Part shown: one piece after another, positions 241-32,392 of the stretch
Layout: each line of letters starts with the position of its first letter
Numbering within the stretch: the stretch's first letter is position 1
Assembly (NCBI GenBank): GCA_029940695.1
Contig: JAPYUP010000017.1
Location: forward strand, 1-34,633
DNA from: Candidatus Thalassarchaeaceae archaeon
Lineage (GTDB): Archaea > Thermoplasmatota > Poseidoniia > Poseidoniales > Thalassarchaeaceae
DNA length: 34,633 nucleotides
Reading direction: 5' to 3'
Notes under the pieces: generated by a model
Seen by the model: only the letters and a program-made list of their open reading frames with translations
Told to the model about the DNA's origin: nothing
The model's database searches: none
Translations under genes and position numbers: made by a program

Positions 241-246
241 TTGAAG
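241..246 (+). promoter_or_regulatory. Candidate TATA-position box of ubiX (TTGAAG)
   Basis: TTGAAG begins 29 nt before the ubiX ATG. This is where a TATA box would sit for a leaderless transcript, and the same box recurs at this distance before several other genes in the window. Inference only; no transcript data. Confidence 0.5.
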
Positions 247-269
247 CGGGGCAGCGAAGAGGGAAGATC

Positions 270-848
270 ATGCCTGAGGCTGTCGTGGCAATCACGGGCG
301 CATCGGGCGCGAACTATGGCGTCAGGCTAATCGAAGCACTGGCTGAAGCTGGCTGGGAGATGAGGCTGATAGTCACGCGCGACGGTGCGATAAATCTCGA
401 CCTAGAATGTGGGATCACTCCGAAGACCCTCGCTTCCCGCCCCGGCGTCACACTCGAAGACAACGACAATTTGGCCGCTCGATCGGCTTCTGGCTCTGCC
501 CGGTTCGATGCTTATGTGGTCTGTCCAGCCAGCGGTACGACTATCGGCAAGATTGCTGCAGGAATAAGTGACAATCTGGCGACTAGGAGTGCTCTCGTGG
601 CGATGAAGGAACGCCGCAAGTTAATCCTCGTTCCGCGCGAGGCCCCTTACTCGACTCCTCACCTCAAGGCGATGACTAAGCTCTCCGAGTGGGGGGTCGT
701 CATTCTGCCCGCCAGTCCCGGATTCTACCACTCGCCGACCACGATCGAAGAGCTCATCGATTTCGTGGTAGCCAGAATCCTCGACCAACTGGACGTCGAG
801 CATAATCTAGGCAAGCGTTGGACCGGCGGAGAAGTAAGCGTCGACTGA
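270..848 (+). CDS. ubiX: Flavin prenyltransferase UbiX
   Basis: This 192-residue protein matches the UbiX/Pad1 flavoprotein family in length and motifs. It opens with the FMN-binding strand-loop AITGASGANYGVRL. It also has the VCPASGTTIGKIAAGISDNL segment, the conserved basic LVPREAPYS loop, and the PASPGFYHSP segment near residue 150. The family attaches a dimethylallyl group to FMN to make prenylated FMN, the cofactor of UbiD-type decarboxylases; archaea use it in pathways such as the modified mevalonate route and quinone synthesis. No ubiD lies in the window, so the partner decarboxylase must be elsewhere. The ATG at 270 is supported by the TTGAAG box 29 nt upstream. The gene is cytosolic and appears complete. 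Confidence 0.93.
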   Translation: MPEAVVAITGASGANYGVRLIEALAEAGWEMRLIVTRDGAINLDLECGITPKTLASRPGVTLEDNDNLAARSASGSARFDAYVVCPASGTTIGKIAAGISDNLATRSALVAMKERRKLILVPREAPYSTPHLKAMTKLSEWGVVILPASPGFYHSPTTIEELIDFVVARILDQLDVEHNLGKRWTGGEVSVD

Positions 849-890
849 ACGACTTCTGACTGGTACCGGTCTGGCATGGGTTCAAGAACG

Positions 891-897
891 GTCCGAA
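891..897 (+). promoter_or_regulatory. Candidate TATA-position box of the SAP-M28 gene (TTCAAGA)
   Basis: TTCAAGA begins 29 nt before the GTG start at 920, matching the spacing of the TTGAAG-type boxes elsewhere in the window. It supports GTG 920 as the start. Confidence 0.4.
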
Positions 898-919
898 GGC
901 GCTCGGCAACAGTGATTAC

Positions 920-2686
920 GTGAGTCAGTGGGCCTCCAAGACCGTTGACGAGCTCAAACAAGAGCTGGGTTCCAGGGGGATGCCAGTATCGGGCAAGAAG
1001 TCCGAATTGGTCAAGCGGTTGGAGTTGGCGGGGCTGGATAGCGCTGTTCTCGAGGCAGAAATTGCCGCCGAAGACGCGAAGGTTTTCCCGTCAATGGTTG
1101 TGAATCGTCTCAAAGAGAGTTCCCAAGCCGCCATATTGCGCCTGAAGGGGCTACCGGTTGCCACGATGGTGGTCGCTGTGCTACTGGTAGTAGGAATGAC
1201 CGGGGGAGCCTTGCTTTACTCTGATGATTTCGTAGAATGGATTCAAGGAGAGCCTGACTACGCTCTGATCGACTTCGACAGCAACCAAACTAGGGCGTAC
1301 GCTGAGGGGCTCGTCAGCCTCGGACACCCAGAGTGGGGGGGCAGGCTGTCCGGGACGGAGGAAGAGAAGAACACGGCACAGTCCATCAAACTCAATTTCT
1401 CCAGCAGCGGGATGCCGGTGACCCTCGAGGAGTTCGAAGTGCCACTCTTCTACATGGGTAACGAATTCGAGATCATGATTTGCACTCCGGGCAACATCGG
1501 CAACATATTTGGCGGCCCAGCGCCATGCTCGGTCGCCGACATAGATCGGGACGAGACGGAGTTCACCCACAGGGAAGACTACGTGGTCCAAGGCTACAGC
1601 GGGGATGTCGACATTGTGGCCAGCAGCGATGTCAATGTCATAGACCTAGAAATGGGCAATGAATCTTCTGACTGGGGCTCAGCTGCCAATGGCATAGGAC
1701 TCGTCTGGATAATGGACGGTCAGGATGGAGATCCAGGCACGGAGAGCAACACCGTTCTACTGCTCAGAGCTCAGGAGAACAGTCTGAGGGGCCTGATTAC
1801 AGTGAACGCGAAGCAGAACTGCGACGAGTTGGTTTCCGGGGATTGCGTTCCATACTTCAAGTCCGTGGACATCACGCAGTTCGACGAGAAGCCCTACGAC
1901 ATCGGATTCGTCATGGTATCGAAGAGCCTTGGCGAGATGATCGCAGAACAGGTCGTCGAGGGTGAGAGTATGCTGCAGTTCGTGATCGAGGTGGACAACC
2001 AGGTTAACGTCAATATCCATGTGCCTTGCGGGATAATCGAGGGCAAGTCTGACTCGTTGATCATTATCGGGGCCCATCACGATACAGTGTACAACGGTCA
2101 AGGCGCTGTCGATAACACCGCCGGCACCGCTACTGTGCAGGAGATAGCTCGGCAGTTCGGCCTTCTCCAATCCGAACTCGGCCAGCCCAAGCACACAATC
2201 TACTTCTGCACCTGGGGCGGTGAGGAGGAAGGGCTCTGGGGTTCATCGGAATGGGTCAAGAAACACCAGGATACGCTCAAAGAGAATCTGAGGCTCTATG
2301 TCAACCTCGACATGAACCACGTGGATGCCCAGAGAAACTCTGGACTCACTCTCCAAGGCAATAGCCCTGCTGATGTAAAGCACATTGTGGGGCTGGTGAG
2401 TGCTTTCGCCAAGTCATACCCCGATCTCGCTTCCAAGTACGAAATCAACGTCAGGCACCTGGACTCCGAGCAGATGCCGTACAACTCCGATCACGCCCCC
2501 TTCGTGTACAACCTCGATGAGAGTGGAGGCGGCGACAACCACTACGGCAAAGCCGTGATGTGCTATGGATCCGGTTCTGAGGAATACCACACCTACCTCG
2601 ACAACATGGATCGATTCAACGAGGAGAGCCTGAAAATTTCGGGAGTCGTTTACGGCTCGCTGGTCCGCTACTTGGCTTGGGGTTAG
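920..2686 (+). CDS. Membrane-anchored M28 family peptidase with N-terminal SAP domain
   Basis: This 588-residue protein has three parts. Residues ~6-40 form a SAP motif (KTVDELKQELGSRG, then KSELVKRLEL), a helix-turn-helix usually linked to nucleic-acid binding. Residues ~78-100 are a single hydrophobic membrane helix. The rest is an outside-facing region ending in an M28 (aminopeptidase Y/S/IAP-like) zinc peptidase domain. The full two-zinc set is visible: H386 and D388 (GAHHD), D398 (AVDN), E435/E436 (GGEEEGLWGS), D464 (NLDMN) and H557 (EYHTYLD), so the enzyme should be active. It probably cleaves peptides at the cell surface, with the SAP domain left in the cytoplasm. The middle region (~110-330) may hold a PA-like insert but I cannot assign it. 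The start is GTG. The gene converges on the peroxiredoxin gene with a 2-bp gap. Confidence 0.85.
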   Translation: MSQWASKTVDELKQELGSRGMPVSGKKSELVKRLELAGLDSAVLEAEIAAEDAKVFPSMVVNRLKESSQAAILRLKGLPVATMVVAVLLVVGMTGGALLYSDDFVEWIQGEPDYALIDFDSNQTRAYAEGLVSLGHPEWGGRLSGTEEEKNTAQSIKLNFSSSGMPVTLEEFEVPLFYMGNEFEIMICTPGNIGNIFGGPAPCSVADIDRDETEFTHREDYVVQGYSGDVDIVASSDVNVIDLEMGNESSDWGSAANGIGLVWIMDGQDGDPGTESNTVLLLRAQENSLRGLITVNAKQNCDELVSGDCVPYFKSVDITQFDEKPYDIGFVMVSKSLGEMIAEQVVEGESMLQFVIEVDNQVNVNIHVPCGIIEGKSDSLIIIGAHHDTVYNGQGAVDNTAGTATVQEIARQFGLLQSELGQPKHTIYFCTWGGEEEGLWGSSEWVKKHQDTLKENLRLYVNLDMNHVDAQRNSGLTLQGNSPADVKHIVGLVSAFAKSYPDLASKYEINVRHLDSEQMPYNSDHAPFVYNLDESGGGDNHYGKAVMCYGSGSEEYHTYLDNMDRFNEESLKISGVVYGSLVRYLAWG

Positions 2687-2688
2687 GA

Positions 2689-3150
2689 CTAGCCTGCGCA
2701 GTAGGCAATCACTTCGTCGTAGTCGGGCTCTAGTCCTGGGTTCTCAGCGACCCAGACGTAACCCACAGAACCATCCGGCTCCACCACGAACACCGCGCGC
2801 TGCGAGGCTGTGAAGCCGGGGGCTCCGAAGTCGTGGATGGCTAGTCCGTAGGCCTCAATCGCGGTGCGCTGGACATCACAAAGCAGCGGGAAGCCAATGC
2901 CGTTGGCTGTGGCGAACTCGTTGTTGGCGAATACATTGTCAGCAGAAATTCCCAGAATGACCGTTTTAGCCCCCTCCAAACTCGACATTGAGTTGGTGAA
3001 GGTGCAGAGTTCAGTGGTACACACCCCGGTGAAAGCGGCGGGATAGAAAGCGAGTACTGCCCTCTTGCCGGAATAATCGCTCAGGGTCACCATCGCCCTG
3101 TCATGCGCCATCAACGTGAAGTCGGGTGCCGCTTCGCCTACGGATACCAT
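2689..3150 (-). CDS. Peroxiredoxin (AhpC/TSA, BCP/AhpE-like)
   Basis: This 153-residue thioredoxin-fold protein has the N-terminal signature of peroxiredoxins (GEAAPDFTL) and the active-site loop FYPAAFTGVCTTELC. The peroxidatic cysteine is C44 within the P-x3-T-x2-C pattern. C49 may be a resolving cysteine, as in some BCP/AhpE-type enzymes. It reduces hydrogen peroxide and organic peroxides using a thiol donor in the cytosol. A thioredoxin-fold gene with a CDEC motif starts on the opposite strand about 55 bp away and could supply electrons; that pairing is an inference from position. A TTGAAAG box lies 28 nt upstream of the ATG, suggesting a leaderless mRNA. Confidence 0.9.
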   Translation of the reverse strand: MVSVGEAAPDFTLMAHDRAMVTLSDYSGKRAVLAFYPAAFTGVCTTELCTFTNSMSSLEGAKTVILGISADNVFANNEFATANGIGFPLLCDVQRTAIEAYGLAIHDFGAPGFTASQRAVFVVEPDGSVGYVWVAENPGLEPDYDEVIAYCAG

Positions 3151-3171
3151 GGGGCGACTAGTAGGTTCTGG

Positions 3172-3179
3172 CTTTCAAT
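3172..3179. promoter_or_regulatory. Candidate shared promoter box of the divergent peroxiredoxin and thioredoxin-like genes
   Basis: On the minus strand this reads TTGAAAG, starting 28 nt before the peroxiredoxin ATG. On the plus strand it reads TTTCAAT, about 31 nt before the ATG at 3205. One element could therefore serve both genes. Confidence 0.4.
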
Positions 3180-3204
3180 CATGCTCATGCAGAGTGGAGT
3201 TCTC

Positions 3205-3519
3205 ATGAAGGAGCTGGTTTCCATTGCCGATTGGGGAGAGGCGATGGCGAGCGAGAGGGTTCTAGTAATGGTATCCAAGAGTGACTGCGATGAATGTGGA
3301 AAGTCGCTAGAGAGAGTAGCCGACCTCGACTTCGGAAATATCTGCATACTGGTTCTAGATAATCCAGAAGCGTTTCCACTTAGGGCAGAACTAGATTGGC
3401 TGAGGATAGAAGTCGACGTGGTCCCGTTCTGGAGGCTGTTCGTTTACGGCGATGTCGCAGGGACCGTTCGTGGTCCAAACCTCAAACGAGTCCAATCGAT
3501 GCTGTTCGACTCTGAATAG
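3205..3519 (+). CDS. Thioredoxin-like protein with CxxC motif
   Basis: The 104-residue product has a strand followed by a CDEC motif (SKSDCDECGKSLERV), then alternating strands and helices and a VVPFW segment in the place of the thioredoxin cis-proline loop. This fits a thioredoxin/glutaredoxin fold with a redox-active disulfide. The reading frame opens much further upstream, but I choose ATG 3205. GGAG sits five bases before it, and longer starts would run into the promoter and coding sequence of the divergent peroxiredoxin. ATG 3187 is a weaker alternative. It may act as the reductant for the neighbouring peroxiredoxin; this is inferred only from the divergent pairing. It abuts the end of argS with no gap. 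Confidence 0.6.
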   Translation: MKELVSIADWGEAMASERVLVMVSKSDCDECGKSLERVADLDFGNICILVLDNPEAFPLRAELDWLRIEVDVVPFWRLFVYGDVAGTVRGPNLKRVQSMLFDSE

Positions 3520-5259
3520 TCACATCCTCTGAGGGACCTCAATGCCAAGCAGTTCCAATCCGAGCTCTAGCTCCCTCGCCGTCAAGTCACATAGGGCAAG
3601 CCTACTGCGTACGGTGCTCTCGTCTCCCGCTGAGAGCACTGGGCATGTCTCGTAGAACGAGGCGAAGGCCGAAGCGATGGCATGCAGATGGGCGCATAGC
3701 CTGTGCGGGTTGTAGGCATGGGTGGACTCGTCCACTACTGAGGAGAACCCTACGAGCCTGCGAGCTAGAAGGCACTCCTCGGGAAGGGCGCATTCCAGTT
3801 CCGAGTCACTCAGAGATTCACGGTCATGGCCCCACTTGTGGAAGATACTGCAAATCCTAGCATGGGCGTATTGCAGGTAGGGGGCCGTGTCGCCGTCGAA
3901 AGAGAGCATCCTCTCCCAGTCGAAGACGTAGTCCTTGGTACGCTCGGTCGAGAGGTCGGCGTACTTCACCGCACCTATGCCAATGATCCGCGCCACACGC
4001 TCACGTTCCTCCCCCTGAAGGTCGGGGTTCTTCTCTTCGATTGCTGCCGTTGCCCTAGACACCGCCTCCATAAGAAGGTCGAAGAGTTTGATTACCTCGC
4101 CCTCGCGGCTCTTCAGAACCTTGCCATCAGTGTCCAGAACAGAGCCGAAGTTGACGTGGACAGCACTGTGGCGCTCATCCATGAAACCGGCTTGCTCGGC
4201 GACTTGGAAGACCATCTGGAAGTGCTGCTTCTGCGGTGTTCCGACAACGTAGAGTAAAGAGTCGCACCCAAGGCGCTCGACTCTATCTATTATGCAGGCC
4301 AAGTCTGATGTCGAGTAGTTGTAGCCACCGTCGGCCTTCCTGATAATCATCGGAAATGGTTCGCCCTCGCGATTCATCCACCCACCCGGATAGGTGACAT
4401 CAGCGCCCTCGCTATGCTCGAGCATGCCTGCCACACCCAAGCGCTCAACCACCAGAGGTAGGAGGGCCTGATACCTCGACTCACCCATAATGTCGTCGTC
4501 CGTCAATAGGACACCGAGCATCGAGTAGACCTCGTTGAAGTAACGCATCGACTCTTCAACTAGAATGTGCCACAGGCGCAGCGTCTCCTCGTCGCCTCCT
4601 TGGAGCAGCACCACGCGCTGCCTGGATCGGTCGGCGAACTCTACCTCAGAGACGAACTTGGCACGGGCTTGCTTGTAGAAAGAGTCGAGGTCGCCCACCC
4701 CCAAATCCTTGGCGGCCTCGCCCTCCCCGAGGTCGAGCAGGTGCTCGATTAGCATGCCGAATGGAGTTCCCCAGTCACCGACATGGTTCTCTCGGTGGAC
4801 GAAGTGGCCCTTGTACTCGAGCATCCTGACTATGGCATCGCCAATTACAGTGGAGCGGAGGTGGCCGACGTGCATTTCTTTGGCCACGTTGGGCGCCGAG
4901 TAGTCTACGACGTAGGTCCGCCGCTCTTCGGAGCCTATTCCTAGCCGTGAATCCGGCATCAGTGACTCAATGCGTCCAGAGAGCCAAGACGGCTGTGCCC
5001 GAAAGTTAACGAATCCGCTGATTGAAGAGACGTCAGCGATGCCTTCCAAGCTATCTCCGATGAGGTTTGAGACCTCGTCGGCGATTTCGTATGGTGACCT
5101 ATTGAGGGTCCTAGCCAGTGCATGACAGGGAAGAGCAGCGTCTCCGTGGTCCTCCACTGTCGCGCGCCTGAACAGGTGTGCCCACTCGGCCTCATCGATA
5201 CCAATCTGTGACATGGCCTTGGCTGTAGCAGGGCGGGCGTCCTCGATCAACTCCCTCAT
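3520..5259 (-). CDS. argS: Arginyl-tRNA synthetase
   Basis: This 579-residue class I synthetase charges tRNA-Arg with arginine. It has an N-terminal ArgRS domain (~1-100). The catalytic core carries the HIGH-equivalent HVGH at residues 130-133 within APNVAKEMHVGHLRST, and the KMSKS-equivalent KVLKSREG near 380-387. The C-terminal anticodon-binding helical domain ends in the typical LLGIEVPQRM. Length and order are normal for the family. It lies 12 bp downstream of aRF1 on the same strand, so the two are probably co-transcribed, and no promoter box is evident in the gap. Its stop codon directly abuts the stop codon of the convergent thioredoxin-like gene. Confidence 0.97.
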   Translation of the reverse strand: MRELIEDARPATAKAMSQIGIDEAEWAHLFRRATVEDHGDAALPCHALARTLNRSPYEIADEVSNLIGDSLEGIADVSSISGFVNFRAQPSWLSGRIESLMPDSRLGIGSEERRTYVVDYSAPNVAKEMHVGHLRSTVIGDAIVRMLEYKGHFVHRENHVGDWGTPFGMLIEHLLDLGEGEAAKDLGVGDLDSFYKQARAKFVSEVEFADRSRQRVVLLQGGDEETLRLWHILVEESMRYFNEVYSMLGVLLTDDDIMGESRYQALLPLVVERLGVAGMLEHSEGADVTYPGGWMNREGEPFPMIIRKADGGYNYSTSDLACIIDRVERLGCDSLLYVVGTPQKQHFQMVFQVAEQAGFMDERHSAVHVNFGSVLDTDGKVLKSREGEVIKLFDLLMEAVSRATAAIEEKNPDLQGEERERVARIIGIGAVKYADLSTERTKDYVFDWERMLSFDGDTAPYLQYAHARICSIFHKWGHDRESLSDSELECALPEECLLARRLVGFSSVVDESTHAYNPHRLCAHLHAIASAFASFYETCPVLSAGDESTVRSRLALCDLTARELELGLELLGIEVPQRM

Positions 5260-5271
5260 ATCTTCACATCC

Positions 5272-6519: not shown

Positions 6520-6524
6520 ACCAT

Positions 6525-6530
6525 ACCTCC
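6525..6530 (-). promoter_or_regulatory. Strong Shine-Dalgarno of aRF1 (GGAGGT)
   Basis: On the minus strand GGAGGT lies 5 nt before the aRF1 ATG. It is notable because many genes here appear to lack a transcribed leader. Confidence 0.75.
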
Positions 6531-6552
6531 GTGAATTGCCGCGACGGGCGGC

Positions 6553-6559
6553 ATTTCAA
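6553..6559 (-). promoter_or_regulatory. Candidate promoter box of aRF1-argS (TTGAAAT)
   Basis: TTGAAAT starts 40 nt before the ATG. Taking ~28 nt from box to transcription start gives a leader of about 12 nt, just enough to include the GGAGGT. Confidence 0.5.
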
Positions 6560-6586
6560 CCCTTCAGCGCGACTTGAGCGTAGGCA

Positions 6587-6593
6587 TTGAAAG
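6587..6593 (+). promoter_or_regulatory. Candidate TATA-position box of UMP kinase (TTGAAAG)
   Basis: TTGAAAG starts 29 nt before ATG 6616. It lies inside the longer open frame that begins at 6574, which argues against that earlier start. Confidence 0.5.
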
Positions 6594-6615
6594 GCAGGGA
6601 GTCCGTCTAGGGTCG

Positions 6616-7317
6616 ATGGCGACCGTAGTCGTGGCGCTGGGAGGAAGCCTACTGCGTCCCGAGGTCGAGGAGCGTCATGATTGGCTTTTGGGGCTCGTGT
6701 CCATAGTGAGGGACCGTGTAGCCGTCGGTGATCGTCTAGGATTGGTGGTCGGCGGCGGCGCGCCGGCAAGGGAAGGAATCGAACTGGTAAGCCCAATCAT
6801 AGACGACATGAATCACCTAGACAAGATTGGCATCGCTGCAACTCGCCTCAACGCTACCATCATCAGAGAGGCACTGGCCGATGAGGGCATACCCGTCTCA
6901 GGAGCAATACCTCAGGAAGTGAGCGAGGCCGTCGAGGCTCTTCTCAGTAGCAAGGTGGTCGTGATGGGTGGGACCGTGCCCGGACACACTACCGACACAG
7001 TTGCAATCCAACTCGCCATCAGGAGCGGGGCTGGTAAGTGCGTAATAGCCACCAATGTCGCGAAGGTGTATGAGCAGGACCCGAAGGAACATCCCGAGGC
7101 GAAGTCGTTCGACAGCCTCACCCTGGATCAGTTGCAATCGATCGTCGGGCCGGCGGAGCATGCACAGGCCGGAGGTTCGCAGGTGGTCGACCCTGTTGGC
7201 GTGGGGGAAGCGGCGAGTCATGGCCTTCCTCTGGACATCCTAGACGGGAGAGAGCTGCAGAACATCCGCTTGGCCCTCGAGGGTGGTGACTTCGGCGGAA
7301 CAGTGGTGACTGGGTGA
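6616..7317 (+). CDS. pyrH: Uridylate kinase (archaeal UMP kinase)
   Basis: This amino-acid-kinase-fold enzyme of 233 residues phosphorylates UMP to UDP in pyrimidine synthesis. It begins VVVALGGSLLRP (phosphate loop), has a VVGGGAPAR glycine-rich segment, the archaeal UMP-kinase signature MGGTVPGHTTDTVA, the nucleotide-binding ATNVAKVYEQDPK segment and a C-terminal DILDGRELQNI. These separate it from isopentenyl phosphate kinase and acetylglutamate kinase, its nearest alternatives. The ATG at 6616 is chosen over a start at 6574 because it places the kinase fold at the N-terminus and puts a TTGAAAG box at -29. It fits functionally with carAB further downstream. A zinc-ribbon gene follows after 4 bp, probably in the same transcript. 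Confidence 0.9.
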   Translation: MATVVVALGGSLLRPEVEERHDWLLGLVSIVRDRVAVGDRLGLVVGGGAPAREGIELVSPIIDDMNHLDKIGIAATRLNATIIREALADEGIPVSGAIPQEVSEAVEALLSSKVVVMGGTVPGHTTDTVAIQLAIRSGAGKCVIATNVAKVYEQDPKEHPEAKSFDSLTLDQLQSIVGPAEHAQAGGSQVVDPVGVGEAASHGLPLDILDGRELQNIRLALEGGDFGGTVVTG

Positions 7318-7321
7318 TCTG

Positions 7322-7633
7322 TTGAGTCGCAAGGACACCATCCTCAAGGCTGCACGAAGGACGGCTCAGGAAGCACGTGCGGCAGCCTCACGCAGGAAGG
7401 AATCTCCTGCTCGTAGGCACGCCGAATCGAATGCCAAGCTGCACCGGCACTGCGTAGTTTGTTGGACTCCCATCCCCCTCGACAGCGACCCACCCATCTG
7501 CGGCAAAGATGACTGCGCAACGATGCAAGACAAGAAAGAGAGATCCAGGCGCAGGCTGACCTTCATGATGTACCTCTTCCCTGCCATCGCCGTGTTCTTC
7601 GTGATTCTCGAGGTCGTGGGGGCGTCAGGTTGA
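7322..7633 (+). CDS. Small zinc-ribbon membrane protein (DUF2116-like)
   Basis: This 103-residue protein has a basic, alanine-rich N-terminal helix (~1-40), then a zinc ribbon (HCVVCWTPIP, then CGKDDC), a short basic stretch (KKERSRRR), and one C-terminal membrane helix (~78-98). This arrangement matches the archaeal DUF2116 Zn-ribbon family, whose function is unknown. The start is TTG, 4 bp after the UMP kinase stop, so translation is probably coupled. The ribbon should face the cytoplasm given the positive charges next to the helix. The stop codon overlaps the TTGAAT that may act as promoter for the next gene. Confidence 0.75.
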   Translation: MSRKDTILKAARRTAQEARAAASRRKESPARRHAESNAKLHRHCVVCWTPIPLDSDPPICGKDDCATMQDKKERSRRRLTFMMYLFPAIAVFFVILEVVGASG

Positions 7634-7635
7634 AT
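7630..7635 (+). promoter_or_regulatory. Possible promoter box (TTGAAT) of the 195-residue membrane protein gene
   Basis: TTGAAT begins 32 nt before ATG 7662, slightly further than the usual 28-29 nt. Read-through from pyrH is an alternative. Confidence 0.3.
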
Positions 7636-7661
7636 CGCCAGACCGCACAGAGGGCATCCAC

Positions 7662-8249: not shown

Positions 8250-8268
8250 TGGATCGGGCTCAGCATCT

Positions 8269-8274
8269 TTGAAG
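8269..8274 (+). promoter_or_regulatory. Candidate TATA-position box of the 38-residue zinc-ribbon gene (TTGAAG)
   Basis: TTGAAG begins exactly 29 nt before ATG 8298, the same spacing as at ubiX and UMP kinase. It supports this tiny frame as a real gene. Confidence 0.5.
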
Positions 8275-8297
8275 AACCCCATCTTGGTAGGGCTATC

Positions 8298-8414
8298 ATG
8301 ACAAGTATGGCTTGCCCTAAATGCGGTTCTGTGATAGAGGCCGAGGGGCTTGTCCCTTCCTTGGGAGGTTACGACCTCTACTGCGTAGTCTGCGGCCATA
8401 CTTGGCACGTGTAA
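8298..8414 (+). CDS. 38-residue C4 zinc-ribbon microprotein
   Basis: Translating from ATG 8298 gives a 38-residue protein that starts MTSMACPKCGSVIEAEG, continues through a glycine-containing linker, and ends LYCVVCGHTWHV followed by TAA. The two knuckles, CPKC and CVVC, are 20 residues apart and each is followed by glycine, the classic layout of a zinc ribbon (as in TFIIB, RPB9 or TFS). The whole protein is one ribbon, so it would most likely bind a partner or nucleic acid. A second in-frame ATG at 8307 could be used. It fills the gap between the membrane protein and the convergent GTPase. Zinc binding is inferred from the cysteine pattern. Confidence 0.7.
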   Translation: MTSMACPKCGSVIEAEGLVPSLGGYDLYCVVCGHTWHV

Positions 8415-12085: not shown

Positions 12086-12092
12086 TGTATAA
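12086..12092 (-). promoter_or_regulatory. TATA-like box (TTATACA)
   Basis: On the minus strand TTATACA begins 28 nt before ATG 12064. It is the most canonical TATA box in the window and sets the reference distance for a leaderless start. Confidence 0.55.
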
Positions 12093-20080: not shown

Positions 20081-20095
20081 ACGATTCTTAATCGT
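20081..20095 (-). promoter_or_regulatory. carAB promoter box within a perfect palindrome (ACGATT-N3-AATCGT)
   Basis: On the minus strand TTAAGAA (20085-20091) begins 29 nt before the carA ATG, the usual box position here. It lies inside a 6+3+6 perfect inverted repeat. A repressor bound there would block promoter recognition. The overlap is visible in sequence; regulation is inferred. Confidence 0.4.
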
Positions 20096-21367: not shown

Positions 21368-21376
21368 ATCATAAAG
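21368..21376. promoter_or_regulatory. Shared AT-rich box between divergent genes (ATCATAAAG)
   Basis: On the minus strand TTATGAT starts 29 nt before ATG 21345. On the plus strand the CATAAAG part lies about 27-31 nt before ATG 21401. A single AT-rich island is thus almost equidistant from both starts. Confidence 0.4.
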
Positions 21377-24872: not shown

Positions 24873-24881
24873 GATGATGTA

Positions 24882-27608
24882 ATGGGATGGACGTTCATCG
24901 AGAATCTCGCGCAGAGACTGAAGATTATTCCTGACCTAGACCGTAAGCGTTCTGTGGGAGCGAGCGTCCCTCTGCGCACCTACCCCGATCCCGAACACTG
25001 GCACGACCATGTCGAGCTCGACGCCAACGCGTGGCCAGAGCACGTCGAGCGACGCTACTCGCTGGTGCCGACGACCTGTTTCAACTGCGAGTCGGCCTGC
25101 GGCCTGCTCGCCTACGTCGACAAGGAGTCTGGGCAGGTCGCCAAGTTCGAGGGTAACCCGCACCATCCCGGCAGCCGTGGGCGCAACTGCGCCAAAGGAC
25201 CGGCCACGATTAACCAAATCAGAGACACCGAGCGCATCCTCCACCCCATGCGCCGGGTTGGCGAGCGCGGCGCAGGAGGCTGGGAGCGGGTATCGTGGGA
25301 CGAGGCCCTCGACGAGATTGCGGCCAAGATCCGTACCTCGCTCAAGACTGGTGCCAAGGACCGGGTGGTGTACCATGTAGGGCGGCCCGGTCACGAGGGC
25401 TACACGAATAGGATACTGAAAGCGTGGGGTGTCGACGGACACAACAGCCACACCAACATCTGCTCAGCTGGCGCCCGCACCGGATACGGGCTGTGGCAGA
25501 AGCACGACCGCCCCTCACCCGACCACGCCAACGCGAAGGTCATTCTGCTGAGCTCCTCGCACCTCGAGACTGGGCATTACTTCAACCCGCACGCGCAGCG
25601 GATCCTAGAAGGAATGATGGATGGCGCCAAGCTCATCGTCATCGACCCGCGCCTGTCAAACACCGCCGCGATGGCGGACCATTGGCTTCCCACATGGCCA
25701 GGCTCCGAATCTGCGCTCTTCCTCGCTTGGGCACGCATGATTCTCGAGCGCGACCTCTATGATCGGGATTTCATGGAGAACTGGGTCAACTGGGATATGT
25801 GGCTCGATGCAGCGCACCCTGACGAGCCACGCACATTCGAGCGTTTCATCGAACTGCTGCTCGATGAGTATGCCGAGTACACCCCGGAGTTCGCAGCCGA
25901 AGAGTGCAGGATTCCCGTTGAGCAGGTCATCGAGGCCGGCGAGGCGGTCGCCAATGCAGGCAGCCGCCTGTGCACTCACGTCTGGCGCTCTGCTGCGATT
26001 GGGAACCTAGGTGGCTGGCAGGTCGCTCGCTCGCTGCACCTGCTGAACGTGCTGACCGGCAGCGTGGGCACAGAGGGCGGCACCTCGCCGAACTCGTGGT
26101 CCAAGTTCAAGCCAGAGCTGTTCGATGAACCGCCTGACCCAGACGGCTGGAACGAGTTGCACTTCCCACCAGAGTACACCCTCTCGCACTACGAGATGAG
26201 CCACATCCTGCCGCACCTCGTCAAGGACGGACGCGGTACCATGGACGTCTACTTCACCCGCGTCTTCAACCCGGTATGGACCTACCCAGATGGCTTCTCA
26301 TGGATCGAGATGCTGGAGAATGAGGAGTCGATCGGATGCCACATCGCCCTGACGCCGACTTGGAACGAGACCGCCTTCTTCGCCGACTACATACTGCCTA
26401 TGGGTCATGCATCCGAGCGACATGATATCAACTCCTACGCAACCTCTGCTGGCAAGTGGGTGGCGTTCCGCCAACCGGTGCTGCGCGAGTACGCGCGACG
26501 CGAGGGGCGCGAGGTCGAGTTCACCCACGAGGTCAATCCCGGCGAGGTCTGGGAGGAGGACGAGTTCTGGAACGAGTTGTCGTGGCGTATCGACGATGGC
26601 ACGATGGGGATTCGCAAGCACTTCGAAAGCCCATATCGCGAAGGCGAGCGGATTACTATCGACGAGTACTACCAGTACACCTTCGAACGCGTCCCCGGGC
26701 TGCCCGAGGCGGCTGCCGAAGAGGGCCTGGATGCGCTCGGCTACATGCGCAAGCACGGTGCCTTCCTAATCGAGGATGCGACCTACTCGAAGCATGAGGA
26801 GGAGGGCTGGCCGACACCGAGCGGCAAGCAGGAGCTGTACTCGCAGACCATGGTCGAGTTCGGCTATCCCGAACACGCCATCCCGCACTACCGAATCCGC
26901 AGTCATGTCCATCCGGACAACCTGCAAGGCGAGGACGAATACTGCCTGCTCCCCAACTTCCGACTCCCCCAGCACATCCATTCACGCTCGGCCAATGCCA
27001 AGTGGTTGGTCGAGATCGCCCACCGAAACCCAATCTGGATCCATCCGAAGGACGCTGCGAAACTTGGCGTGGACGAAGGAGACCTGCTCAAGATCGAGAC
27101 CGAGATAGGCTGGTTCGTGGACAAGGTCTGGGTCACAGAGGGAATCAAGCCGGGAGTTGTTGGCTGCTCGCACCACATCGGACGTTGGAGGCGCAGTCAG
27201 GACCGTGGGAACCGATTCCTGACCAACGAGGTTGTCATAGAGGATGTCGGAGAGGGCAGGATGCGGATGAGGACGGTCTCGGGAGTAGAGCCCTGGAAGT
27301 CTGACGACCCCGATACGAACAGAGTCTGGTGGAGAGACGGGGGGGTTCACCAGAACATCACGCACGCAGTGCAACCGGACCCGATTAGCGGCGCCCACTG
27401 CTGGCTACAGAAGGTGCGATTGAGCCGCCCGGGACCCGATGAGAAGTACGGGGATGTAGAAGTGGACACCAACAAGTCATTCGAGTACTACAAGCGCTGG
27501 AACGAGATGGCCAAGCAGCGCGAGACCCACCCGAGGGGCGAGCGTCGTCCGCTGTGGATGAAGAGGCCTCTATCCCCTAAGAAGGAACACTGGTTCATGC
27601 CCGAGTGA
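24882..27608 (+). CDS. Molybdopterin oxidoreductase catalytic subunit (DMSO reductase superfamily)
   Basis: This 908-residue protein is the catalytic subunit of a complex iron-sulfur molybdoenzyme. An N-terminal [4Fe-4S] motif has C66, C69, C73 and C103 (TTCFNCESACG, GRNCAKGP). It is followed by the family segments ILHPMRRVGERG and WERVSWDEALDEIA. C194 in HTNICSAGARTGYG is the likely molybdenum ligand, as in polysulfide, thiosulfate and sulfite-type enzymes; S195 is the alternative. The molybdopterin-dinucleotide-binding domain starts near 680 (QHIHSRSANAKWL). There is no Tat signal. A cytoplasm-facing enzyme such as SoeA-type sulfite dehydrogenase, or a polysulfide-type reductase, is therefore more likely than a periplasmic one. 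The substrate cannot be read from sequence. Confidence 0.88.
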   Translation: MGWTFIENLAQRLKIIPDLDRKRSVGASVPLRTYPDPEHWHDHVELDANAWPEHVERRYSLVPTTCFNCESACGLLAYVDKESGQVAKFEGNPHHPGSRGRNCAKGPATINQIRDTERILHPMRRVGERGAGGWERVSWDEALDEIAAKIRTSLKTGAKDRVVYHVGRPGHEGYTNRILKAWGVDGHNSHTNICSAGARTGYGLWQKHDRPSPDHANAKVILLSSSHLETGHYFNPHAQRILEGMMDGAKLIVIDPRLSNTAAMADHWLPTWPGSESALFLAWARMILERDLYDRDFMENWVNWDMWLDAAHPDEPRTFERFIELLLDEYAEYTPEFAAEECRIPVEQVIEAGEAVANAGSRLCTHVWRSAAIGNLGGWQVARSLHLLNVLTGSVGTEGGTSPNSWSKFKPELFDEPPDPDGWNELHFPPEYTLSHYEMSHILPHLVKDGRGTMDVYFTRVFNPVWTYPDGFSWIEMLENEESIGCHIALTPTWNETAFFADYILPMGHASERHDINSYATSAGKWVAFRQPVLREYARREGREVEFTHEVNPGEVWEEDEFWNELSWRIDDGTMGIRKHFESPYREGERITIDEYYQYTFERVPGLPEAAAEEGLDALGYMRKHGAFLIEDATYSKHEEEGWPTPSGKQELYSQTMVEFGYPEHAIPHYRIRSHVHPDNLQGEDEYCLLPNFRLPQHIHSRSANAKWLVEIAHRNPIWIHPKDAAKLGVDEGDLLKIETEIGWFVDKVWVTEGIKPGVVGCSHHIGRWRRSQDRGNRFLTNEVVIEDVGEGRMRMRTVSGVEPWKSDDPDTNRVWWRDGGVHQNITHAVQPDPISGAHCWLQKVRLSRPGPDEKYGDVEVDTNKSFEYYKRWNEMAKQRETHPRGERRPLWMKRPLSPKKEHWFMPE

Positions 27609-27611
27609 GAT

Positions 27612-27827
27612 TCAAACGGCCCCGGTCATCCTGCCCCAGGTGACCATCTCCCAGCCCCTCTCGTGCAGGTAGTAGAACAGCATCTTGAGCGAGATATCAG
27701 CCCCAGCGAAAAGCGCGCCGTGCTCGAACTCGCCTGTGATGGCGATGACGATTGCAACCCCCGTGCAGGTCGCTATGGCCCTCCAACTAACCGCCTTGAC
27801 GAAGCTCCGAGAGCGGCTCTGTCCCAT
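27612..27827 (-). CDS. DUF2061 membrane protein (copy 1)
   Basis: This 71-residue protein fits the DUF2061 family: RSFVKAVSWRAIA at the start, a first membrane helix (TCTGVAIVIAITG), a second region with ISLKMLFYYLHERGWE at the end. I use ATG 27827, which begins just before the domain; the longer frame to 27938 adds residues without similarity and would overlap the next gene upstream. It converges on the Mo subunit gene with a 3-bp gap. The family's role is unknown. A second, diverged copy lies 107 bp upstream on the same strand. Confidence 0.8.
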   Translation of the reverse strand: MGQSRSRSFVKAVSWRAIATCTGVAIVIAITGEFEHGALFAGADISLKMLFYYLHERGWEMVTWGRMTGAV

Positions 27828-27934
27828 CTCCAACGGAGGCGACGGTACAGGCGTACCAATTAACTTGAACGGCTCGTCAAATAGCGCGGACGCGTTTTTG
27901 TCGTCACCCAAACAGACGCCACCGGCGGAGCGTC

Positions 27935-28222
27935 TCAATGAACGGGGCGAAGTTTCAGGTTCTGTGAATCTACATCGACGTCCTCAAGACCCCAATCCAA
28001 CGAACTCCAACCTCGCTCGTGCAGATAATACAGCAACATCTTGGTGAACAATTCGGTACCTCCAACGGTTGCTCCTGCTAACCAACTTCCAGTGACTATT
28101 CTCGTTATGATAATCGTGTCTATAGTTCCGATAGTCCTCCATGAGAGTGTCTTCACTAGGCTGCGTTTCTTACCTGCGTGCCCAGCTCCTTCAATATGCT
28201 CTGTAACGATGTGCTCTGTCAT
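27935..28222 (-). CDS. DUF2061 membrane protein (copy 2)
   Basis: This 95-residue protein has the same core as its neighbour: RSLVKTLSWRTIGTIDT, a hydrophobic helix (IIITRIVTGSWLAGATVGG) and LFTKMLLYYLHERGWSSLDWG. It has an N-terminal histidine/glutamate-rich stretch (MTEHIVTEHIEGAGHAGK) and a longer C-terminal tail that copy 1 lacks. The two copies share the domain but differ much at the sequence level, so the duplication is not recent. The segment around this gene is visibly richer in A and T than its surroundings. No function is known for the family. Confidence 0.8.
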   Translation of the reverse strand: MTEHIVTEHIEGAGHAGKKRSLVKTLSWRTIGTIDTIIITRIVTGSWLAGATVGGTELFTKMLLYYLHERGWSSLDWGLEDVDVDSQNLKLRPVH

Positions 28223-28281
28223 GTTATCACTATGCTTTGCAGAACGGTATGTAGGATAACCCCTCCTATGGCCTAAACTAG

Positions 28282-28288
28282 AAAAAAA
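28282..28288 (-). terminator. T7 run directly after thiolase
   Basis: Three bases past the thiolase stop codon the minus strand reads seven T in a row. Archaeal RNA polymerase commonly terminates at such T-tracts, so this probably ends the thiolase transcript and insulates the DUF2061 genes. Confidence 0.55.
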
Positions 28289-28291
28289 CAG

Positions 28292-29527
28292 TCAAATCGA
28301 CTCGATTACTACCGCAATTCCCTGCCCGCCGCCGATGCATGCTGTCGCTATTCCATATCGGCCACCACTGCGCTTGAGCTCGTGCGCCAGCGTCAGCACC
28401 AGTCGGGTGCCCGTGGCAGCCAGAGGGTGGCCTAGGCCCACCGCCCCGCCGTTTACGTTGACCCGTTTGAGGTCGATGCCGAGGTCGTTTACGCATGCCA
28501 CGGTCTGGCCAGCGAAGGCCTCGTTAATCTCCCAGCGGTCAATGTCGCCAGTCGTGAGGCCAGCGCTCCCCAGCGCCTTGAGGCTCGAAGGCACCGGCCC
28601 GTGAGCCATAATCGCAGGCTCGAGGCCGACGATGCCCCACGAAACTATCCTAGCCAACGGCTGGTCGCCATCGGCCTGAGCCCGGCTGGCCGACTTGACC
28701 ACGACTGCCGCAGCACCGTCGACCACACCCGAGGCGTTGCCAGCGGTCACCAGCGAGTCGGGTCCGAAGTGCGTGCGCAACGCGGCCAGAGACTCCGTGG
28801 TCGTTCCTCGGACGACGTGGTCCTCCTGGGTAGCGCCGACAGTGCCGCCGGGAGTCTCGACATCGACGATCTCACGGGCCCACAAACCAGTATCGATGCT
28901 TGCTTCTGTGCGTTGGTGGCTGAGGGCGGCGAACTCGTCGGCCTGCTCGCGCATCACGCCGTTGCGTCGGCACAGCTCGTCGCTGGTCTGGGCCATGAAG
29001 GAGCCACAGATGCCATCGCGCAGGTTGGTGAACAGGTAGTCCTCCATGTCCTTGGCCAGCTCCTCTCCCGCTCGGGGAGGACGACCGAGACGGTAGGTGT
29101 CTCTCATATCTCTGAGAACATGCGGAGCCTGGCTGAGGTTCTCCATGCCCCCGGCGACCACGACCTCGGCCTCATCGAGCATGATCATCTGCGCGGCGTT
29201 GACGATCGACTGCGCGCCGCTGCCACAGAGTCGGTTGAGCGTCAGCATCGGCACCTCCTGCGGGATTCCCGCCTTGAGCCCCGCATGGCGGGCTCCGAAG
29301 ATTGCCTGGCCTGAGGTCTGGAGGGCGTGGCCCATCACGACGTGATCGATGCTACTGGGGTCGGTGCCGGTGCGCTCCATGGCACCCATGATGGCGATTG
29401 CGCCGAGGTCCTCTGTGGTGATGGATGCCAACCTGCCACCCGGCTCGCCGTCACCGCGCTTGCCGCCCAGCCACTCGCAGAACGGGGTCCGCGCACCACC
29501 TACCACGACGACGTCTTCGCGTGCCAC
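28292..29527 (-). CDS. Acetyl-CoA C-acetyltransferase (thiolase)
   Basis: This 411-residue protein is a bacterial-type thiolase. It has the nucleophilic cysteine in LNRLCGSGAQSIVNAAQ, the conserved NVNGGAVGLGHPLAATG with the active-site histidine, and the C-terminal cysteine in TACIGGGQGIA. Such enzymes either join two acetyl-CoA or cleave 3-ketoacyl-CoA in fatty-acid breakdown; length and motifs do not separate these roles. No HMG-CoA synthase or beta-oxidation gene is adjacent, so a degradative use cannot be excluded. The start is GTG at 29527, with no ATG near the expected N-terminus (AREDVVVVGGARTPF). A T7 tract follows the stop. Confidence 0.92.
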   Translation of the reverse strand: MAREDVVVVGGARTPFCEWLGGKRGDGEPGGRLASITTEDLGAIAIMGAMERTGTDPSSIDHVVMGHALQTSGQAIFGARHAGLKAGIPQEVPMLTLNRLCGSGAQSIVNAAQMIMLDEAEVVVAGGMENLSQAPHVLRDMRDTYRLGRPPRAGEELAKDMEDYLFTNLRDGICGSFMAQTSDELCRRNGVMREQADEFAALSHQRTEASIDTGLWAREIVDVETPGGTVGATQEDHVVRGTTTESLAALRTHFGPDSLVTAGNASGVVDGAAAVVVKSASRAQADGDQPLARIVSWGIVGLEPAIMAHGPVPSSLKALGSAGLTTGDIDRWEINEAFAGQTVACVNDLGIDLKRVNVNGGAVGLGHPLAATGTRLVLTLAHELKRSGGRYGIATACIGGGQGIAVVIESI

Positions 29528-29579
29528 GCGTAAGCGACCATGAACCGCCTCAAGAGCATGACTGTTCAGGTGCGCTGGC

Positions 29580-30989
29580 TCAGGAGTCGTTCCCTTCCTC
29601 GGTCATGGAGCCGAGGTAGTCAGGGAGTTCGACGCCCGACATCTTTGCGACGTCGTGGATTGGCGGCAGGCTCTGGACGAGGCTGCTCACGAAGTTGCTG
29701 GTGGCGGACGATCCGTCGGCGTTGTTGCCGCTGTCCCATACGGTGATCTTGTCGATCTTGAGGTTTCGAATCGCCTCGACCTGTGCCGCCACCATGCTCT
29801 CTATCTTCTCGACCATGAGCAGGGTCGCTGCAGCCTTGGGGTCCCCAGAGGTGCTCGTGACCAGTTTGTTGTACCCATCCGCCTTTGCGTCGAGGACTTT
29901 CTGGATACCCTCCGCCTCGGCCTTGTACACCGAGAGGATGGCATCTGCCTCACCTTGGGCGATGCGCCGCTGGCGCTCGGCCTCAGCCTCCGCGGCAATC
30001 TCGATCTGTTGCTTGGAAATCTGCTCGCGGACGAGCTCGCTGGCCTTCAGCCGCTCTTCCTCTTCGCTGTAGAAGGCACGCTGGATGGCTGCCTCGGCCT
30101 CGGCCGTGGCGACGTCCGCCCGCTGCTTTGCAGCTGCCTTCGCCTGATCGAGGTCTGCGTTCACCGCGGCAATCTCCGCTTGCGCTGTGTTCTCACCAGC
30201 GATGGCCAATGCCTCTTGGTTCTCGACGTAGACGCGCTTGTCAGCCTCCGCGGCCTTGCGACCCTTCGCTGCCTCGGCCAAGTTCTGCGCGACCTGAATC
30301 TCTCGTGTCTTGTTCGCCTGTGCCGCACCGATGGCACCGTCCCTCTCGGCGTTGGCAACGTCGATTCGGGCCTGCTCGACTGCGTGGGCAGCTGCCTTCT
30401 TGCCGATGCTCTCGATGTAGTCCGACTCGTCTGTGATGTCGACGATGTTCACGTTGATTAGGAACAGCCCGACCTTGTTCAGCTCAGCGCTGACGTTGTC
30501 TTGGATGTGCCTCAGGAACTCGTCCCTGTCCTGGTTGATTTGCTCGATGGTCATCGATGCGACCGTGAGACGGAGTTGCCCGAAGATAATCTCCTCCGCC
30601 GTCTCCTCGATATCGACGGGTTTCAGGCCCAACAGGCGCTCGGCTGCGTTGGCCATTATGTTGGGCTCAGTGGAGACGCCGATGGTGAAGGTGCTGGGGA
30701 CGTGGATGCGGATGTTCTGCTGGGACAGCGCGTTCCTGAGGTCGATCTTGATTGTCATTGGCTTCAGCGAGAGGAAGGCGTAGTCCTGAATCAGCGGCCA
30801 GACCAACGCTGCACCGCCGTGCAGCGTCTTGGAAGCCTTGGTCACCTTCCCTGTGGTGCGACCGTAAATCACCATAACTTGGTCGGGCGGGCACCTCTTG
30901 TAGCGCTGTGCAAAGAACATCACGGCGGCCACCAGTACCAATACGGTTGCGAATATCATTATCGTCAGTATAGAAGTAGCATCTGCCAT
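29580..30989 (-). CDS. Flotillin-like SPFH-domain membrane protein
   Basis: This 469-residue protein starts with one membrane helix (~6-26), then the SPFH domain (QVMVIYGRTTGKV, then ALSQQNIRIHVPSTFTIGVS), and a long alanine- and glutamate-rich coiled coil (~200-370; repeated AEAEA-type runs). It ends in a domain with KIDKITVWDSG, typical of flotillin/YuaG (FloT). Flotillins scaffold ordered membrane patches. ATG 30989 gives the normal N-terminus; an upstream frame to 31061 adds a non-conserved segment. An NfeD-like gene lies upstream on the same strand. Flotillins are widely encoded next to NfeD proteins, so the pair is very likely functional. The 101-bp gap between them holds no clear promoter box; TTCAAG at 31000-31005 is too close to the ATG. 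Confidence 0.92.
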   Translation of the reverse strand: MADATSILTIMIFATVLVLVAAVMFFAQRYKRCPPDQVMVIYGRTTGKVTKASKTLHGGAALVWPLIQDYAFLSLKPMTIKIDLRNALSQQNIRIHVPSTFTIGVSTEPNIMANAAERLLGLKPVDIEETAEEIIFGQLRLTVASMTIEQINQDRDEFLRHIQDNVSAELNKVGLFLINVNIVDITDESDYIESIGKKAAAHAVEQARIDVANAERDGAIGAAQANKTREIQVAQNLAEAAKGRKAAEADKRVYVENQEALAIAGENTAQAEIAAVNADLDQAKAAAKQRADVATAEAEAAIQRAFYSEEEERLKASELVREQISKQQIEIAAEAEAERQRRIAQGEADAILSVYKAEAEGIQKVLDAKADGYNKLVTSTSGDPKAAATLLMVEKIESMVAAQVEAIRNLKIDKITVWDSGNNADGSSATSNFVSSLVQSLPPIHDVAKMSGVELPDYLGSMTEEGNDS

Positions 30990-31090
30990 TGGCTCAACTC
31001 TTGAACACAGTGGGGTCCGCCCCCCTGAAGAATGCTTTGCCGGCACGGGCCCCAAACACATTCGCAGGGTGCTGGAACCAGGGGGTGAGC

Positions 31091-31687
31091 TCAGACCCTC
31101 TTGACGACGAGGATATCTCCCATTATTCCGACGACCTCGATGAAATTGCCCGTGTCTATCTCGACGTCGTCGTGGGACTTGGCGTTGTAGGTCCGCTGTA
31201 CGCCATTCACCTCGACAGTGACCTGCCCGACGCCGCCTTGGGGGATCTTCAGGTAGGTCTGCCCCTTCGAGCCAACGGCATCCGAGGTCTCCGTAGTGCC
31301 GTCAGCCTGCAGGCTCACGAACAACGAGAAGAGCTTGCCAGTGGCGTACATCGACGCGGTTCCGGTCAGCGCACCGACTAGGACGGCGATGCTGGCGTTG
31401 CCGTTGGGCGTCTTCAGGACATACAGCCCGGCCAGGCCGAAAAACATCATGAAGGCCATGATGCCTTGGAAGGTGAGCGCCTTGAACGAGGCGTCGGCGC
31501 CCAGATCGACGTCTATGCCGAAGAGGCCGTCGAAGACGTCGGTGGCTATCCCCCCAATCATCAGCAGGAAGAAGTAGAGTACGAAGAGGATGCCTCCGAC
31601 CAGCGCGCTGGCTCCGAACAGAAGCTCGAGGCCGCTTGCGTCCCCAAGCCCGACAAGGTCGAACAGGTCGAAGTCCAGCAGACCCAT
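31091..31687 (-). CDS. NfeD-like membrane protein (flotillin partner)
   Basis: This 198-residue protein has three or four membrane helices in its first ~130 residues and a C-terminal beta-barrel domain (~135-198). That domain (GSKGQTYLKIPQGGVGQVTVEVNG, ending IEVVGIMGDILVVKRV) has the shape of the OB-fold of short NfeD/YuaF proteins. YuaF is encoded next to flotillin in Bacillus and forms membrane foci with it. Position directly upstream of flotillin supports the same role. The start is ATG 31687 with a TAAAATC box 28 nt upstream. Confidence 0.85.
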   Translation of the reverse strand: MGLLDFDLFDLVGLGDASGLELLFGASALVGGILFVLYFFLLMIGGIATDVFDGLFGIDVDLGADASFKALTFQGIMAFMMFFGLAGLYVLKTPNGNASIAVLVGALTGTASMYATGKLFSLFVSLQADGTTETSDAVGSKGQTYLKIPQGGVGQVTVEVNGVQRTYNAKSHDDVEIDTGNFIEVVGIMGDILVVKRV

Positions 31688-31708
31688 GACTGGGCGTCGG
31701 GTAGGTCC

Positions 31709-31715
31709 GATTTTA
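31709..31715 (-). promoter_or_regulatory. TATA-like box of the NfeD-flotillin unit (TAAAATC)
   Basis: On the minus strand TAAAATC begins 28 nt before ATG 31687. It is AT-rich and in the same position as the other boxes. Confidence 0.45.
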
Positions 31716-31748
31716 CTTGTTCGGCTGCATCTTGGGCAACGGTGCTCA

Positions 31749-32009
31749 TTATTTTGACCTGATTGTGCCGTAGTACCGCTCTAAGTTGAGGATTGGCCCG
31801 ATCGAGAGCCCGACCACGGCGAAGGAGACCACTAGGTTCGTGCTGTGGGACAAGAAGCTGGCAAGGACGGTGTAGGTGAACAGGCCGATAACGAACAGCA
31901 ACATCGGAATCGCAGCCCTGCGGAAGAAGATGTGGTAGCCGCCCATCTGTTCAAACGCTGGGTTGCCAATCACCCTGTCGAGGAACTCGGGGTCCTCATC
32001 GTCAGACAT
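31749..32009 (-). CDS. Small membrane protein of unknown function (two helices)
   Basis: This 86-residue protein has an acidic start (MSDDEDPEFLDRV), then two hydrophobic segments (~33-52 and ~58-74) and a short basic end (RYYGTIRSK). I find no family match. It begins 10 bp after the stop of the next gene upstream on the same strand, so the two small membrane proteins are probably co-transcribed and may act together. It sits just upstream of the NfeD-flotillin pair. Confidence 0.6.
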   Translation of the reverse strand: MSDDEDPEFLDRVIGNPAFEQMGGYHIFFRRAAIPMLLFVIGLFTYTVLASFLSHSTNLVVSFAVVGLSIGPILNLERYYGTIRSK

Positions 32010-32018
32010 GCTGCGCCC

Positions 32019-32363
32019 TCAGGCGACCAACCATGCCAGTAGCCCGATGAAGGTCATCCCGACTGGGAGGGCGTACCAAGCGGCCTTGAGGGCCTTCGGG
32101 GAGTTGTCGACCAGTTCCTTCTGACCCGTATCCGGGTTGACCTCCAGCACCATCTTCTCGGCCTTGTTGTAGGCAGTGGCGAACTCGGACTCGTGGCGTG
32201 CGAGGAATAACAGGAAGTATATGCCGAGCGCTATGGTCCCGCCGCCGCTGAGCTGAATCATCTGCGCTAGAAGGTCGGAGGTGCCCGCATTCAGCAGGGC
32301 CTCACCCAGCAGAAGTTGTGCCACGCCCAGCATGAACCACGTAATCGAGTCACTACGCGCCAT
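32019..32363 (-). CDS. Small membrane protein of unknown function (three helices)
   Basis: This 114-residue protein has hydrophobic segments at ~8-26, ~38-54 and ~93-113, with a charged cytoplasmic loop (~55-90, ESEFATAYNKAEKMVLEVNP) between the second and third. I do not recognise it. A TTGATG box begins 29 nt before its ATG, so it appears to head the unit with the following 86-residue membrane protein. Both lie between a thioesterase gene and the NfeD-flotillin pair; whether they associate with flotillin patches is open. Confidence 0.6.
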   Translation of the reverse strand: MARSDSITWFMLGVAQLLLGEALLNAGTSDLLAQMIQLSGGGTIALGIYFLLFLARHESEFATAYNKAEKMVLEVNPDTGQKELVDNSPKALKAAWYALPVGMTFIGLLAWLVA

Positions 32364-32386
32364 GGTGTATTGACCGTGAGGTCACA

Positions 32387-32392
32387 CATCAA
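32387..32392 (-). promoter_or_regulatory. Candidate TATA-position box (TTGATG)
   Basis: On the minus strand TTGATG begins 29 nt before ATG 32363, matching the TTGAAG-type boxes in spacing and four of six bases. Confidence 0.4.

Follow-up and report, generated by a model that had tools for sequence, protein, structure and literature searches.

Has the basal promoter of a marine archaeal order drifted away from the standard TATA box? The question is raised by a window of 34,633 nt, the whole of contig JAPYUP010000017.1 (assembly GCA_029940695.1) of Candidatus Thalassarchaeaceae archaeon, a member of the order Poseidoniales in the phylum Thermoplasmatota. A first-pass annotation of this window had noticed short TTGAAG or TTGAAAG boxes recurring 28 or 29 nt before start codons, and took them for a possible non-canonical TATA box with widespread leaderless transcripts. 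We consider it likely, at a probability of roughly 0.8, that TT[C/G]A[A/T] followed by a purine is the Poseidoniales equivalent of the TATA box, with an upstream flank that resembles the B recognition element (BRE), read by TBP and TFB and giving rise to leaderless mRNAs.

Few parts of archaeal and eukaryotic transcription are as conserved as TBP and its box. The archaeal TATA box carries T or A at every core position, including a TA step, is centred about 26 or 27 nt upstream of the transcription start, and has the BRE immediately upstream. If the reading given here is true, an order of archaea abundant in the surface ocean would offer a natural experiment in core promoter evolution, with a box that has shifted, a TBP that has been modified and an additional TBP-like protein. 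An open-access literature search, which left subscription papers mostly outside its coverage, turned up nothing on the promoters or the TBP of Poseidoniales.

A positioned box upstream of operon-first genes

The window is contig C10 of an assembly (G000) of 1,417,712 bases in 44 contigs, and genes were called in 621,527 of these bases. Three further Poseidoniales samples were used: G007 from the same genus (396,955 bases), G061 from another genus of Thalassarchaeaceae (379,060 bases, 40% guanine plus cytosine, GC) and G019 from another family of the order (400,000 bases). A simple codon-usage caller chose each start by the best coding score. Genes counted as operon-first if their upstream neighbour lay on the opposite strand or was 50 nt or more away; genes for which no start or no neighbour had been called, and those less than 60 nt from the end of a stretch, were dropped. 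Motif discovery was run on positions -50 to -5 of operon-first genes with no positional prior, and expected counts of TTSAW (S, C or G; W, A or T) starting at -31 to -26 were derived from flanking positions. A count of TTSAW before every ATG, independent of gene calls, was discarded because codon phase dominates it.

Taken alone, the window says little. Among its 21 operon-first genes TTGAA is found twice against 0.32 expected (P 0.04), TTSAW three times against 1.26, which is not significant (P 0.13), and the annotated boxes had been picked after reading the window. Since the excess inside the window is weak, the claim was tested outside it. In the 281 operon-first genes of G000 minus the window, TTSAW occurs 43 times against 10.0 expected (P 8e-15), TTGAA 15 times against 3.3 (P 2e-6) and TTCAA 13 times against 3.5 (P 7e-5). 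The idea that TTGAA had merely happened to recur in one stretch and so caught the eye would fit the window's own P values; it is already refuted by the excess in the rest of sampled G000 and by recurrence in three other genomes, and we give it practically no weight. The first-pass annotation was thus right that the repetition exceeds chance, a point that the window carries weakly and the rest of the sampled genome strongly. Its TTGAA is indeed enriched, but as one form of a broader box, TT[C/G]A[A/T] and then a purine, in which TTCAA is about equally common.

The upstream alignment and motif discovery that had been proposed as a check recovered TTSAW in all four genomes, and hence in two families, with the first T at -30 or -29. 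Set against 12 approximate dinucleotide shuffles per genome, a 10-wide motif model reached likelihoods of 72-134 where the shuffles reached no more than 49-59, and its positional peak stood at 5.0-7.7 times the mean where theirs did not exceed 3.0-3.9. Direct counts at -31 to -26 agree: 46 sites in 302 operon-first genes of G000 (11.2 expected), 30 in 186 of G007 (8.1), 41 in 185 of G061 (12.5) and 45 in 207 of G019 (11.4). These 162 sites start most often at -29 (64), -30 (45) and -28 (20). Operon-internal genes show no excess, with 1 site in 107 genes of G000 (2.4 expected), 3 in 65 of G007 (2.5), 3 in 71 of G061 (4.4) and 2 in 44 of G019 (1.7). A fifth Poseidoniales sample, G020, has three TTSAW against 0.5 expected in 17 operon-first genes, and motif discovery in it was uninformative. 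The box motif is real and recurs across Poseidoniales as far as they were sampled.

The surroundings of the box point to a promoter. Relative to TTSAW sites sampled genome-wide, the 162 anchored sites are enriched for G six positions before the box (54% against 23%, p 2e-15) and for A four positions before it (44% against 22%, p 1e-8), a pattern that resembles a BRE and may be the TFB site; a purine is favoured directly after the box. Shine-Dalgarno motifs precede 38 of the 210 genes that have a TTSAW, TTWAW or TATA box (18%), which is the level of chance (148/880 in letter-shuffled sequence); they precede 198/670 of the other operon-first genes and 201/287 (70%) of the operon-internal ones. 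The difference between operon-first genes with and without a box has a pooled p of 0.0009, and per genome, with a slightly different box window, p values of 0.05, 0.27, 0.016 and 0.042. Genes for tRNA lack a start codon, and they have the box as well: among 49 distinct upstream regions in Poseidoniales, 15 contain TTSAW, with 16 sites against 3.0 expected and 13 of them at -33 to -30, while the tRNA upstream regions of five other genomes contain it in 0 of 26 (about 1 expected). A short box whose two main forms, TTGAA and TTCAA, are mutual reverse complements might in principle be the site of an abundant regulator or a signal for translation; its occurrence where relatives have the TATA box, its BRE-like flank and its presence before tRNA genes make such a role very improbable.

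In the four genomes the box spans -30 to -24 from the start codon. We infer that TBP binds it, at about -29 to -24, that TFB binds the pattern upstream, and that RNA polymerase would begin transcription at the start codon or next to it, some 26 bp downstream, which would yield a leaderless mRNA. The motif, its position, the chance level of Shine-Dalgarno motifs, the occurrence before tRNA genes and the contrast with relatives described below lend good support to the box being the TATA-box equivalent for leaderless transcripts, and the proposal that a non-canonical, TATA-like box is in wide use at the distance of leaderless starts probably holds, as far as sequences can tell.

The third base, relatives and base composition

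The contrast with relatives was drawn from five genomes that belong to the phylum but not to the order, G032, G053, G064, G069 and G073, with 48, 72, 90, 65 and 63 operon-first genes; G032 belongs to the same class as Poseidoniales and has 64% GC, and G073 has 69%. Where a standard archaeal box would have T or A, TTNAW boxes of the four Poseidoniales have C or G as their third base in 162/192 cases, compared with 8/118 in the five others. By genome, T or A stands there in 6/6 boxes of G032, 33/33 of G053, 46/46 of G064, 20/23 of G069 and 5/10 of G073. In these controls motif discovery gave mixed results. G053 and G032 yielded a TATA box and G073 a degenerate box of the T/A type; nothing stood out clearly in G064 and G069, so that fixed-pattern counts alone cover the latter two.

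Besides the weak signal in the window and the contact residues of TBP treated below, several observations weigh against the reading of a shifted box. The excess of strict TTSAW over chance amounts to no more than about 12-16% of operon-first genes. TTWAW is itself enriched at the box, with 7 sites in G000, 10 in G007 and 7 in G019 against about 2.2, 2.2 and 2.7; it is not enriched in G061. The share of C/G at the box equals that of TTNAW in non-coding DNA far from genes in G000, G007 and G019 (p 0.35, 0.85 and 1), as TTWAW is scarce in their DNA as a whole, and C or G at the third position may therefore be tolerated instead of demanded. The observed-to-expected ratio of TTWAW is 0.34-0.52 in all DNA, coding included, of the four Poseidoniales and 0.48-0.69 far from genes; for all DNA of the controls it is 0.39 in G073 and 0.80-0.95 in the other four. 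G073, outside the order, has C/G in 5/10 boxes. Its C/G boxes may be an independent shift.

An orthologous footprint also departs from strict TTSAW. The mevalonate-kinase-like gene beside TBP, so named from a reading of its sequence, was parsed in 75 of 80 loci, giving 73 distinct promoters in which start choices offset some rows by a few bases. Their most conserved bases are A at -33, T at -25, A at -26, C at -22 and T at -28; position -27 is C in 37, A in 25, T in 11 and G in none. The commonest string at -29 is CTCAT (32), followed by CTAAT (8), ATTTC (7) and ATAAT (6). The footprint supports a box at that place, but one whose middle base is C or A.

Virus-like contigs, likewise, gave no support. 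A TFB query found six viral contigs (L279-L284) that encode a TFB 54-66% identical to that of Poseidoniales, and a RadA query found no relative in viral contigs. Two of the TFB-bearing contigs measure 108-110 kb, which falls in or close to the size range of 90-110 kb stated for magroviruses. In five of the six contigs, whose hosts are presumed to be Poseidoniales, the third base of the box before 31 operon-first genes is T three times and C once; across all 111 genes with upstream sequence it is C/G 11 times and T/A five times, and most starts look Shine-Dalgarno-led. These counts are too few to decide the matter and do not favour a TTSAW box.

The background-level share of C/G in three genomes and the C/G boxes of G073 give substance to another account, in which an ordinary archaeal TATA box has degenerated under base composition and TBP tolerates C/G at one position; parts of one study, moreover, connect a higher genome GC with a smaller number of recognisable TATA boxes (PMC8553660). 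Two genomes speak against it. At 40% GC, G061 combines its TTSAW excess with no excess of TTTAW (3 against 2.7), and its preference for C/G is specific to the box (41:6 against 313:204 in far non-coding TTNAW, p 0.0002). The same-class G032, at 64% GC, has no TTSAW (1.3 expected) and 11 TT[A/T]A against 1.7, in 48 genes only. Haloarchaeal boxes, too, are described as TTWT in the parts of a Haloferax study that bear on promoters (PMC4983044). Composition is not the whole cause, because G061 prefers C/G beyond background and G032 lacks it at higher GC, and as a full explanation we regard it as possible, on balance rather unlikely. The safe statement is that, compared with relatives in the phylum, C or G has become acceptable at the third position of the TTTAWA box and is now the main form. 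The annotated lack of a central TA step is true of that main form; it does not extend to the TTWAW boxes, which are in excess in G000, G007 and G019, or to the TTTATAA kept by the TBP gene.

TBP, TFB and a second TBP-like protein

The TBP of G000 has 238 residues, matches archaeal TBPs and has its best PDB match in 2z8u, which we take to be the TBP of M. jannaschii. Among the best 80 of 358 loci that match it (L109-L188), identity to metagenome-assembled genomes of Candidatus Thalassarchaeaceae and Poseidoniales (Marine Group II) reaches 95%. Like the canonical archaeal protein it has two repeats, FPG and F-x-SG motifs, and conserved N and T positions; it differs by an insertion in the second (C-terminal) repeat. 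The spacing from repeat to repeat is about 146 residues in Thalassarchaeaceae, 112-120 in the other family and about 92 in other lineages among the matches listed, which puts the insertion at about 50 and 20-28 residues in the two families (L001:1480-2193, L109-L188). It is absent from the 12 non-Poseidoniales sequences aligned, and a lineage of the same class also has ordinary spacing among the matches listed. A structure model of Poseidoniales TBP from 27 sequences (mean pLDDT, the predicted local distance difference test, 50.6) is too poor to place it.

An adapted TBP/TFB pair had been suggested as the partner of the altered box. The minor-groove base contacts, presumably N, V, F, F and T in each repeat, could be parsed in 105 of 130 loci, 93 from Poseidoniales and 12 from others, with some genomes occurring twice; by gap counts, 91 of the 93 belong to one family and two to the second. 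At these positions all residues are canonical, the same in the 93 as in the 12, which counts against the reading as well. Altered contact residues were accordingly rejected at these positions, and an adapted contact surface is therefore not shown. TFB was not found in the G000 assembly and is present in 11 of 13 genomes of relatives; in five TFBs inspected by eye, the recognition helix looks ordinary. An adapted pair is suggestive only.

Poseidoniales also encode a second, divergent TBP-like protein of 175 residues, present in single copy (G000:C44:41349-41873, minus strand; L040:1477-2004). It is found in 27 of 30 genomes including its own and in 13/13 well-completed ones; in a draw across the phylum it is present in 13/13 Poseidoniales and 1/46 others, by a single-sequence query that could miss remote relatives, and the lone outside match is weak (3.5e-4) and overlaps an ordinary TBP. 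By sequence it is order-specific in the genomes drawn. Pfam recognises one TBP repeat in the G000 protein at 23.0 bits (cut-off 22.9); in the protein of G021 both repeats were matched (2e-7 and 9e-4); hhalign from a single sequence gave nothing credible, and there was no PDB match.

The promoter of the TBP gene itself keeps the standard box. TTTATAA lies within -34 to -21 in 71 of 76 loci (four of the 80 lack an upstream region), and TTTATA-type boxes precede TBP in the other Poseidoniales family (three loci parsed) and in the other lineages parsed. In the four genomes, 22 operon-first genes have only a T/A box, and four of these are TBP, one per genome. In many TBP loci (L109-L188, 60 nt upstream) TTTATAA is accompanied by another element, either TATA-like or CATAAGTGCG.

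One might conclude that two promoter systems coexist, the ordinary TBP reading TTTATA and the second protein reading, or helping to read, TTSAW, as the near-exclusive presence of that protein in the order and the TTTATAA of the TBP gene would allow. Both box types, however, lie at the same distance, the resemblance of the protein to TBP is marginal, and by eye it lacks most of the presumed DNA-contact residues of TBP, so that we hold this arrangement to be improbable. A bolder version, tentative and in our view somewhat unlikely, is that Poseidoniales arose with a rewritten basal promoter code: TBP would have gained its insertion, a second TBP-fold protein would have appeared, and TTTAWA would have given way to TT[C/G]AWR (R, purine), with the TBP gene keeping the ancestral TTTATAA. 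That box would perhaps serve as a sensor of free TBP, and the canonical TATA sequence is proposed to have been avoided in the rest of the genome.

Boxes in the window and likeness to known promoters

Measured from first base to first base, nine of the ten annotated boxes lie 28-29 nt from a start codon (Table 1). The exception is the TTCAAGA assigned to the SAP-M28 gene, which has no in-frame start 28-29 nt away. The AT-type versions reported at the same place prove to be a real minority form.

Table 1. Boxes annotated in the window and the genes that follow them (gene names from the first-pass annotation)
Feature	Positions	Strand	Remarks
TTGAAG box	241..246	+	29 nt before ubiX ATG 270
ubiX-like gene	270..848	+	open reading frame; matches in 27/30 genomes including own
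TTCAAGA listed for SAP-M28 gene	881..887	+	39 nt before GTG 920
Peroxiredoxin-like gene	2689..3150	-	open reading frame; has matches
TTGAAAG box	3172..3178	-	28 nt before ATG 3150
TTGAAAG box	6587..6593	+	29 nt before ATG 6616
UMP-kinase-like gene	6616..7317	+	gene call; matches in 29/30 genomes including own
TTGAAG box	8269..8274	+	29 nt before ATG 8298
38-residue open reading frame (zinc ribbon)	8298..8414	+	four cysteines
TTATACA box, AT form	12086..12092	-	28 nt before ATG 12064
TTAAGAA box, AT form	20085..20091	-	29 nt before ATG 20062 (carA)
TTATGAT box, AT form	21368..21374	-	29 nt before ATG 21345
TAAAATC box, AT form	31709..31715	-	28 nt before ATG 31687 (NfeD)
TTGATG box	32387..32392	-	29 nt before ATG 32363

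Two ubiX orthologues (G017:C1:82203-82775 and G021:C20:19538-20110) are reported with one stop codon within the match.

A promoter model built on this box could help to place gene starts and operons and to predict expression in uncultured Poseidoniales, in which plain TATA-box scans would miss most sites. Compared with the TTTAWA-type TATA box and BRE of Thermoplasmatota relatives, the Poseidoniales element keeps the distance to the start codon, a BRE-like pattern upstream and an encoded TBP and TFB; it differs in a third base that is mostly C or G and in the genome-wide under-representation of TTWAW. Haloarchaeal leaderless promoters offer a second parallel. In the parts of the Haloferax volcanii study that bear on it, 72% of protein-coding transcripts are leaderless and the BRE is described as CGAAA (PMC4983044); there, too, the box lies about 30 nt upstream, and it differs from that of Poseidoniales by T or A at the third position.

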